Program-made: the position numbers and the translations under genes
Assembly (NCBI GenBank): GCA_902793325.1
Contig: CADBCY010000030.1
Location: 1 to 44,420, forward strand
DNA from: an uncultured Eubacteriales bacterium
Lineage (GTDB): Bacteria; Bacillota; Clostridia; Christensenellales; Aristaeellaceae
Length of the DNA stretch: 44,420 bases
Direction of reading: 5' to 3'
Part shown: positions 8,075-10,268 of the stretch, piece after piece
Layout of the letters: each line of letters begins with the position of its first letter
How positions within the stretch are numbered: position 1 is the first letter of the stretch
Notes under the pieces: model-generated
What the model was told of the DNA's origin: nothing
The model's database searches: none
What the model saw: the letters and a program-made list of their open reading frames with translations, nothing else

Positions 8075-8104
8075 GGCCCCGCCGGACGGCGGGGCCTTTC
8101 TATT
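8075..8104 (+). terminator. Terminator after the symporter gene
   Basis: A 9-bp GC stem (8075-8083 with 8088-8096), a GGAC loop, then TTTCTATT. It abuts the promoter of the next gene. Confidence 0.75.
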
Positions 8105-8131
8105 GCCAATTCGTCCGTTTTCCGCTATAAT
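8103..8131 (+). promoter_or_regulatory. Promoter of the methyltransferase-ThyX-like operon
   Basis: TTGCCA (8103-8108), 17 bp, TATAAT (8126-8131), 19 bp before the start codon at 8151. Confidence 0.8.
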
Positions 8132-8150
8132 AGGCGGGGGAGGGTTGCCC

Positions 8151-8933
8151 ATGGACATTCAGGCGCTTCGGGAAGCGTGGCTGGCGGAGCAGGCGCAGGC
8201 CAGGATCCACGGCTGGGATTTCTCCCACCTCGACGGGCGCTGCTCCGAGGAGGACGACCTGCCCTGGGATTATCGCGCAATCGTATGCGCGTACCTGAAG
8301 CCTTCCTCCAGGCTCCTGGACCTGGAGACGGGCGGCGGGGAATTCCTGCTGTCGCTGAACCACCCCGGGGAGAACACCGCCGCGACCGAGGGCTATCCGC
8401 CGAACGTCGCGCTGTGCGAGGCGCGGCTCAAACCGCTCGGGATCGACTTCCGCGAGGTCAGGGACGCATCGGCGCTGCCGTTTGCCGACGGCCGGTTCGA
8501 CATCGTGATCGACCGGCACGGGGACTTCGACCCGGCGGAGATCGGCCGCGTGCTGAAGCCCGGCGGGCTGTTCATCACCCAGCAGGTGGGCGAGGACAAC
8601 GACCGCGAGCTGGTGGAGCTGCTGCTGCCCGGGACGCCGAAGCCCTTTCCGGGGATGAACCTCCGCCGGCAGCGCCAGGCCTTCCTGGACGCGGGCTTCG
8701 ACGTGATCCGCGGCGAGGAGTGCTTTCGCCCCATACGCTTTTTCGACACCGGCGCGCTGGTCTGGTTTGCGCGCGTGATCGAGTGGGAGTTCCCCGGCTT
8801 TTCCGTGGAGAGCTGTCTCCCGGGCCTGCTGCGCGCGCAGCGCATACTGGAGGAAAACGGCGCGATCGAGGGTACCATACACCGCTACCTGATCGTCGCG
8901 CAGAAGCGCCCGGATGCGGCGCAATCGAAATGA
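8151..8933 (+). CDS. Class I SAM-dependent methyltransferase
   Basis: A 260-aa soluble protein. After a ~45-residue lead with GWDFSHLDGR, the SAM-binding motif I is SRLLDLETGGGEFLLSL. An acidic turn (TEGYPPN) and the motif IV region DIVIDRHGDFDPAEIGRVLKPGG follow, the Methyltransf_11 pattern. The C-terminal ~80 residues contain an aromatic segment (WFARVIEWEFPGF) that may bind the acceptor. The substrate is unknown. The ATG at 8151 is preceded by GGGGGAGGG; a frame extension upstream would run into the promoter. The ThyX-like gene starts 12 bp after the stop, so the two form an operon. Confidence 0.8.
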   Translation: MDIQALREAWLAEQAQARIHGWDFSHLDGRCSEEDDLPWDYRAIVCAYLKPSSRLLDLETGGGEFLLSLNHPGENTAATEGYPPNVALCEARLKPLGIDFREVRDASALPFADGRFDIVIDRHGDFDPAEIGRVLKPGGLFITQQVGEDNDRELVELLLPGTPKPFPGMNLRRQRQAFLDAGFDVIRGEECFRPIRFFDTGALVWFARVIEWEFPGFSVESCLPGLLRAQRILEENGAIEGTIHRYLIVAQKRPDAAQSK

Positions 8934-8945
8934 GGGATGAATTAT

Positions 8946-10268
8946 ATGAATCAGAGCAGGGCGATCATCGTGGTGGAGAACCGGGAGGCGCTGCGCGTGG
9001 CGGCGGCCTCGGCCCGCATCTCCACCCAGCAGGGCACGGCGCTGGAGATCCTGGAGAAGAGCCTGGGGGACGAAAAGGACCTGCGGCTCATCGACAAGGT
9101 GCTGTCCTCCGGCCACAAGTCGGTGATCGAGCACCAGACCTTTTCCATCGCCTTCAACGACGTCTCCGTGCTGGCGGAGCAGTTCCTGATCGAGGCGCGG
9201 CTGGCGTCGTTTACGGTGAAGTCCCGGCGCTACGTGGACTTCGGCGCGGCGGGCTACGTGGTCCCGGACGGCCTGACGGCGGCGCAGCGCGCCCGCTACG
9301 CCGCCGCCATGGAGGCGCGCTTCGACGACTACCAGCGGCTGATGGCGCTGGGCGTGCCGAAGGAGGACGCCCGCTTCGTGCTGCCCTACTGCCTGCGCAG
9401 CAACTTCTTCATGACGCTGGACGCCCGCGAGCTGATCGCGCTGATCTGCGCCATGCTGGACGGCCGCGGCCGCGGATTCGGCGAGATCGAGGCGCTGGGC
9501 GCGCAGCTCAGGGAGCAGTTTGACGCGCTGTACCCCGGCGTGATCGACCGCGAGCGCCCGCGCTACGCCGGGTGCGCCATGGCCGCGCTGCCGACGGAGA
9601 TCGCCGAACCCGACGTCGCACGCGGCGGCGCCGAGCTGCTGAGCGCGCCTGCGGACGCCGAGGGCCTGCTCGGCGCGGCGCTGGGCTTTTCCGGCAGGAT
9701 CGGGGCGGGGGAGGGCGGCCTCTCCAGGGACGTCGTGCGCGCGCTGATCACCGACGCGCGGCCGCGCGAGCTGGAGCTGCTCAACTACGGCTTCCGCATC
9801 AGGAACATCTCCCTGGCCTGCCTGACGCACTTTGCGCGCCACAGGATCCAGTCGCCGGTGATCCCGCCGGTGATTCGGGCGCTGGCCGGGGGCCGCTTCG
9901 TGCTGCCGGAGACGGTGGCCGCCGATCCCGCGGCGGAGGCGCTCTACCGCCATGCCTTCGAGGCGCAGGCCGCGGCGGCGCGGGAGGCGCTGTCGATGGG
10001 CATGCGTCCGGAGGACGCGAGCTACTTCGCGCTGAGCGGACACCAGTTGGACATCCTCATCTCGATGAACGCCCGCGAGCTTTTGCACTTCATGAAGCTG
10101 CGCGCTTGTTCCCGCGCCCAGTGGGAGATCCGCGGCGTGGCCATGGAGATGCTCCGGCTGCTGCGCGCGGAGAGCCCCGCCGTCTTTGAGGGCTACGGCG
10201 CGAGCTGCCGTCTGGGTCCCTGCCCGGAGGGCAGGATGAGCTGCGGCAAGCCCTGGGAACGCTTCTGA
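8946..10268 (+). CDS. Internally duplicated ThyX-like (FAD-dependent thymidylate synthase) protein
   Basis: A 440-aa protein made of two ThyX-like halves; ordinary ThyX is ~220-250 aa. Half 1 (about 1-215) has RVAAASARIS, SSGHKSVIEHQTF (55-66), then EARLASFTVKSRRY (83-96) where ThyX has RHRxxSxNExSxRY, and GVPKEDARFVLP. Half 2 (about 216-440) has THFARHRIQS with R298-H299-R300, FVLPE, GMRPEDASYFAL, and NARELLHFMKLRACSRAQWEIR, whose R386 matches the dUMP-binding arginine of ThyX. So the flavin and dUMP residues are split between halves. ThyX normally makes dTMP from dUMP using FAD and methylene-folate. Whether this protein does so is unproven. The start at 8946 has GAGGG at a good distance; ATG 8937 does not. 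Confidence 0.82.
   Translation: MNQSRAIIVVENREALRVAAASARISTQQGTALEILEKSLGDEKDLRLIDKVLSSGHKSVIEHQTFSIAFNDVSVLAEQFLIEARLASFTVKSRRYVDFGAAGYVVPDGLTAAQRARYAAAMEARFDDYQRLMALGVPKEDARFVLPYCLRSNFFMTLDARELIALICAMLDGRGRGFGEIEALGAQLREQFDALYPGVIDRERPRYAGCAMAALPTEIAEPDVARGGAELLSAPADAEGLLGAALGFSGRIGAGEGGLSRDVVRALITDARPRELELLNYGFRIRNISLACLTHFARHRIQSPVIPPVIRALAGGRFVLPETVAADPAAEALYRHAFEAQAAAAREALSMGMRPEDASYFALSGHQLDILISMNARELLHFMKLRACSRAQWEIRGVAMEMLRLLRAESPAVFEGYGASCRLGPCPEGRMSCGKPWERF

Follow-up and report, generated by a model that had tools for sequence, protein, structure and literature searches.

Can a flavin-dependent thymidylate synthase (ThyX) still work when its active-site signature is divided between two fused copies of its own fold? 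The question is raised by a gene in a 44,420-nucleotide stretch of DNA from an uncultured Eubacteriales bacterium (contig CADBCY010000030.1, positions 1 to 44,420; hereafter the window), whose 440-residue product we call the tandem ThyX. We propose that this protein is a flavin-dependent thymidylate synthase that arose by fusion and complementary loss, and that two chains would together form two composite active sites. From the sequence comparisons we give this reading a probability of about 0.78. No other thymidylate synthase was detected in the genome of this gut bacterium, and the tandem is probably a working one.

A ThyX signature divided between two halves

The gene, its halves and its C-terminal tail are placed as follows.

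8946..10268, + strand: tandem ThyX gene, an open frame of 440 amino acids plus stop, with Thy1 and thyX profile matches
8946..9560, + strand: half 1, about residues 1-205, predicted ThyX fold, proposed B- and C-subunit roles
9627..10265, + strand: half 2, about residues 228-440, predicted ThyX fold, proposed A-subunit role
10197..10247, + strand: C-terminal tail, residues 418-434, common to ordinary clostridial ThyX and present only after half 2

Pfam Thy1 (PF02511) covers the protein in two stretches, with 229.1 bits against a cut-off of 24.8, and NCBIfam thyX (TIGR02170) matches it with 162.3 bits (cut-off 87.9). In an AlphaFold2 model of the full 440-residue chain (predicted local distance difference test, pLDDT, 84.4; predicted template modelling score, pTM, 0.82) each half matches solved ThyX structures, the best Z score belonging to half 2. 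The original prediction of two ThyX-like halves fused in one chain is thus borne out. An in-frame ATG at 8937 provides an alternative start that gives a protein of 443 amino acids. Residues 300-421, within half 2, also show a weak sequence match (E 0.0016) to the solved 164-residue protein Win31 (9deh).

Conservation was followed in two sets of proteins. The tandem set began with 77 full-length tandem frames, reduced to 49 distinct sequences after removal of duplicates, this protein included; nine from more distant genomes, one of them a phage-collection record, bring it to 58 distinct sequences, among which one pair is more than 97% alike. L067, a copy with an in-frame TAG, was excluded because it matched residues 65-439 only. 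The set of ordinary clostridial ThyX (n = 33) combines the 30 best-scoring of 89 genomes of the order with a match and three from the family sample, and is biased toward typical ThyX by this choice of the highest scorers. Left out of it were L060-L063, L087 and L088, which are weak, phage-like or divergent single ThyX, and L064, which gave no match. Positions are given in T. maritima ThyX numbering unless chain residues are named, and the equivalence between half 1 and half 2 was taken from profile alignment (hhalign). The motifs concerned, with their occurrence among the 58 tandems, are these.

9111..9134, + strand: GHKSVIEH of half 1, chain residues 56-63 (H57 is H53, S59 is T55, E62 is E58); H57 and E62 in 58/58, residue 59 S in 46, T in 11, A in 1
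9192..9200, + strand: E83-A84-R85, where half 1 has a decayed RHR (E for R78, R80 retained); E in 56, Q in 2; R85 in 58/58; position 84 variable, H in 6
9207..9233, + strand: active-site loop of half 1, chain residues 88-96 (S93 is S88, R95 is R90, Y96 is Y91); S93, R95 and Y96 in 58/58
9363..9374, + strand: E140-D-A-R143 of half 1 (E144 and R147); 58/58
9837..9845, + strand: R298-H299-R300, the RHR motif of half 2; 58/58
10098..10130, + strand: LRACSRAQWEI of half 2, chain residues 385-395 (R386 is R174); R386, R390, Q392 and E394 in 58/58

Each of the catalytic residues H53, R78, S88, R90, Y91 and R174 is invariant in one half of all 58 tandems. Half 1 keeps H53, E58, R80, S88, R90, Y91, E144, R147 and R165 throughout, with serine or threonine at T55 in 57 sequences. 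Half 2 just as consistently keeps R78, H79, R80, N163, R165, R174, Q180 and E182, and is without H53, T55, S88 (serine in 7 of 58), R90 and Y91. By the profile alignment, the R174 position of half 1 falls on chain residue 170, which is arginine in none of the 58; an arginine stands four residues further on (residue 174 here) in 55 of them. In all 33 ordinary ThyX the residues that are divided between the tandem halves are present together in one unit. The contiguous signature, RHR followed by SxRY within one domain, is absent from the tandem; half 2 has RHR without SxRY and half 1 has SxRY without RHR, and we therefore class the protein as a fused variant related to the ThyX family and not as a canonical ThyX.

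Most of what the original prediction said of individual residues holds across the set. GHKSVIEH and chain residues S88, S93 and R94-R95-Y96 of half 1 are as it described them, as are the replacement of RHR by EAR, the missing dUMP-binding arginine (dUMP, deoxyuridine monophosphate) and, in half 2, R298-H299-R300 and LRACSRAQWEI with R386. Two of its statements need adjusting. Half 1 was held to keep only the tail of the signature: the tail is indeed kept, but the missing NE is uninformative, S and V being the residues at N85 and E86 in every one of the 33 ordinary clostridial ThyX, so that the apparent loss is normal for the group. Half 2 has lost NExSxRY as claimed, and the loss is wider, taking in the H53 and T55 positions, which by an extrapolated alignment correspond to R272 and R274.

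Subunit roles and the proposed composite sites

ThyX is a textbook example of an enzyme whose active sites are assembled from three subunits. For the M. tuberculosis enzyme, a published review of the site contacts has subunit A contribute R95-H96-R97 and R199, B contribute S71 and R190, and C contribute R87, S105, R107 and Y108 (PMC6514825). Accounts of T. maritima ThyX place R78 at the flavin N1, name S88 and Y91 as possible acids, put H53 on a third monomer and have R174 activate dUMP (PMC8316439, PMC11940539). Set against these assignments, half 2 of the tandem holds the whole A set, and half 1 holds the B set and three of the four C residues, R87 being the one missing. Under this scheme nine of ten expected residues are kept, compared with two of ten dispensable ones (Fisher two-sided p = 0.005, with the A-role half assigned after the split was known and the residues not independent).

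We propose that two ThyX units were fused and that complementary residues were then lost from each. Two chains would assemble into the usual four-unit ThyX body, in which half 2 would always give the arginines for flavin adenine dinucleotide (FAD) and the uracil (R78-H79-R80 and R174), and half 1 would always give H53, the contacts made by T55 and R165, and the loop (S88, R90 and Y91) that grips dUMP and covers the flavin. With half 2 assigned to A and half 1 to B and C, D2 symmetry would put half 2 at D as well. The sites centred on A and D would be complete except for R87, and those centred on B and C would be without residues of every role. Of the four sites, which are equal in ThyX, two would then be complete for dUMP, FAD and folate and two would be dead; as far as sequence can tell, neither half has the residue set for four equal sites. 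We infer the assembly, the number of sites and the catalysis, and the consistency of the scheme is argued from symmetry. The suggestion in the original prediction that the halves are complementary, with one composite site per chain, gains support from the conservation in 58 tandems, from the published subunit assignments and from the same split in seven distant tandems described below.

The predicted dead sites have a conserved chemistry of their own, part of which lies in one further motif.

9759..9767, + strand: R272-P-R274 of half 2, equivalent to H53 and T55 in the predicted dead site; R272 and R274 in 58/58, by an extrapolated alignment

The dead-pair equivalents of R78, H53 and T55 are E83 (56/58), R272 (58/58) and R274 (58/58), so that charge is swapped, R78 becoming E83 and H53 and T55 becoming R272 and R274. 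The two arginines were placed by a gap-free half-to-half offset of 215 residues, taken from the secondary structure of the model and extended two to three residues upstream of the part covered by hhalign. Symmetry would bring E83 from half 1 and R274 from half 2 into one dead pocket. Tentatively, the lost sites may not have been just abandoned: the pattern could reflect a salt bridge in the dead pair that drives pairing, or a regulatory binding site that controls the two live sites, an idea that we consider less likely than not.

Thymidylate supply and alternative readings

The search for thyA or a standard thyX that accompanied the original prediction as a proposed check was run on the bacterium's own genome (95% complete) and found neither, with no second Thy1 match and no ThyA. 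Every one of the 28 genomes of the genus has the tandem, which in one case contains an in-frame TAG. An additional ThyX is present in several, and none of the 28 has ThyA, leaving the tandem as the sole candidate thymidylate synthase in most of them. Going by the matches listed, a family sample of 120 genomes has 27 that match over the whole tandem, 73 that match over less of it and 20 that do not match. ThyA was sought in 80 genomes, namely all 27 with a tandem, 23 of the 73 shorter-match genomes, all 20 without any match and 10 more distant tandem genomes. It was found in none of the 27 and none of the 23, in 8 of the 20 without ThyX match, and in 2 of the 10 distant ones, both times as a weak and partial match. 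The tandem is the only Thy1 match, among the matches listed, in 22 of the 27 tandem genomes of the family sample. The other five have further matches, and the three inspected proved to be a TAG-interrupted ThyX (G224), a fragment (G225) and a second tandem (G270).

The two tandem ThyX genes of G270, a genome of family f1, differ from each other (L123 and L124). Four other genomes of family f1, G240, G290, G291 and G308, are all more than 90% complete and yielded neither ThyX (among the matches listed) nor ThyA; sequence may be missing from them, or these bacteria may live on thymidine. The genus-mates G205, G224, G222 and G210 have further single-domain ThyX (L060, L061, L062 and L064, on stretches L152-L155) with two to three in-frame TAG codons. 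Three of the four stretches have, about 0.4 kb from the TAG-bearing ThyX, a transfer RNA whose anticodon is CTA and which ARAGORN labels Pyl; the G+C content of the stretches is 0.55-0.58 compared with 0.65 in the window. They look like TAG-recoded phages with a ThyX of their own.

Several observations weigh against a composite-site synthase. The positions of Q75 and of M. tuberculosis R87, fixed in all 33 ordinary ThyX, are altered in both tandem halves: the Q75 position is F in 48 of 58 first halves and H in all 58 second halves, and the R87 position, a dUMP contact, is V in 52 first halves and L in 57 second halves. The fixation of R87 in ordinary ThyX has slightly lowered our confidence in the proposal, to the value given above. 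An invariant glutamine stands one residue before the Q75 position in half 1, and the R87 arginine is not universal in solved ThyX, T. maritima having I there. Complementarity is also imperfect, as R80 is kept in half 1 too and N163/R165 are present in both halves. Finally, 25 of the 28 genus genomes have a thymidine kinase, so that thymidylate could come from salvage instead of synthesis; among the 20 family genomes without ThyX match, 12 are also without ThyA. Missing sequence is the likely cause in these 12, because five of them sit in genera with tandem members.

The changes at Q75 and R87 keep alive the notion, also raised in the original prediction, that the fusion now carries out a different reaction, such as methylation of uridine monophosphate (UMP) or of a modified nucleotide, along the lines of the PolB-type UMP/dUMP methylases. 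We consider such a shift unlikely. Apart from these two, every followed position that does not vary among the 33 ordinary ThyX is invariant in one half of the tandem or the other, and the chain thus retains the remaining catalytic residues without exception; the protein is the sole candidate for thymidylate synthesis in most genomes of a genus in which ThyA is absent throughout; and one distant phage tandem adjoins a gene for deoxycytidine monophosphate (dCMP) deaminase, whose product makes dUMP. It is very unlikely that one half, be it half 2 or half 1, forms a full ThyX-type site with substitute residues while the other is structural. Half 2 does keep RHR, R174, the C-terminal tail and the highest Z score, and the arginine four residues after the R174 position might serve half 1, but eight active-site positions of half 1 are invariant in 58 sequences, a constraint for which a scaffold would have no use. 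The halves are moreover alike in mean pairwise identity among the tandems (0.57 in half 1, 0.55 in half 2), as against 0.27 in residues 206-270 between them.

The least probable explanation, to which we attach hardly any weight, is that the tandem is a non-catalytic relic or a regulator in bacteria that live on thymidine salvage. The thymidine kinase genes and the 12 family genomes without either synthase speak for it; against it stand the invariance of most followed active-site residues, the retention of the tandem in every genus genome and the likelihood that sequence is missing from the 12. A thymidylate synthase with composite sites is the reading that we retain.

Neighbouring gene, relatives and known systems

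The original prediction also placed the upstream methyltransferase in the same operon as the tandem gene.

8103..8933, + strand: class I S-adenosylmethionine (SAM) methyltransferase-like gene, Pfam Methyltransf_11, 33 bits

This gene ends 3 or 12 nucleotides before the start of thyX and, in the window, sits between a sodium:solute symporter gene and thyX. Close as it is, no homologue was found in the loci of 27 relatives at E 1e-5, some of these loci being short contigs. In 18 of the 27 the symporter gene directly precedes thyX, with a gap of 86-371 nucleotides compared with 887 here. A role for the methyltransferase as a partner of ThyX was rejected on these grounds, and the operon link is not supported: the gene is a local insertion and recent neighbour, not part of the system.

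Within the order, a different family also has a tandem of the clostridial type (G087), and elsewhere in the phylum two more families have it, making 7 of 398 sampled genomes with the bacterium's own one counted. One more, of 43.5% identity, is in MT835736.1 (L149), an unverified and unannotated 'Bacteriophage sp.' record from human faeces, which may be of phage origin or a misassigned bacterial contig. A very different tandem of 387-476 amino acids is found in three small genomes of family f28, and the phages Ma-LMM01, Microcoleus My-WqHQDG, Tunturi_5 and BONAISHI encode others of 480-518 amino acids. The seven distant tandems have the same polarity: the first half of each carries SxRY (SxRF in one) without RHR, and the second carries RHR and the R174 equivalent without SxRY.

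In a tree of the halves, the clostridial first halves cluster together, as do the second halves, which is the pattern expected if the clostridial tandems go back to a single fusion. The distant tandems lie on branches too long for the tree to place, and may or may not have an independent origin. Scans of viral contigs with both alignments, using two peptide patterns for each, gave no relative. When the phylum sample was searched with the distant bacterial type, one of 299 genomes gave a match, to a frame of just 222 amino acids.

Duplication of ThyX is already known and is in itself not new, because a duplicated ThyX was noted as uncharacterised in 2009. The passage in question (Biol Direct 2009, PMC3224940) concerns Chloroflexi and mentions one chain with a duplication of the ThyX domain, called uncharacterised, which according to its authors is the only thymidylate synthase of sequenced Chloroflexi except Dehalococcoides. 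Compared by description only, that protein is like the tandem in being a single chain with a ThyX duplication, and unlike it in that the passage describes no residue split. Our full-text literature search, with subscription papers mostly outside its reach, found no description of a split ThyX active site.

The gp020 protein of Microcystis phage Ma-LMM01 and its relatives (PHROG 36506) are likewise of double length, are annotated as thymidylate synthase and show the same division of residues, but are very divergent and tied to the clostridial type by fold and motif only. The likeness to PolB-type UMP/dUMP methylases is one of fold only. Chlamydia ThyX is reportedly also unusually long, and Griffin et al. 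are said to have shown its activity in 2005.

Half of the ThyX sites have seemingly been removed by dividing roles between two linked copies, and the tandem appears to be a clear example of how duplication and fusion can be followed by complementary loss within one active site. The polarity of loss is the same in two bacterial types and in phage proteins. Such a division of roles would allow a test of whether the four sites of ThyX act independently. Compared with the ThyX of T. maritima (TM0449) and M. tuberculosis, the tandem is alike in the fold of both halves and in having nearly all the signature residues that were followed somewhere in the chain, and it has its C-terminal tail in common with clostridial ThyX. 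It is unlike ThyX in being a 440-residue fusion with a divided signature, in its predicted two sites per assembly in place of four, and in the changes at Q75 and M. tuberculosis R87.
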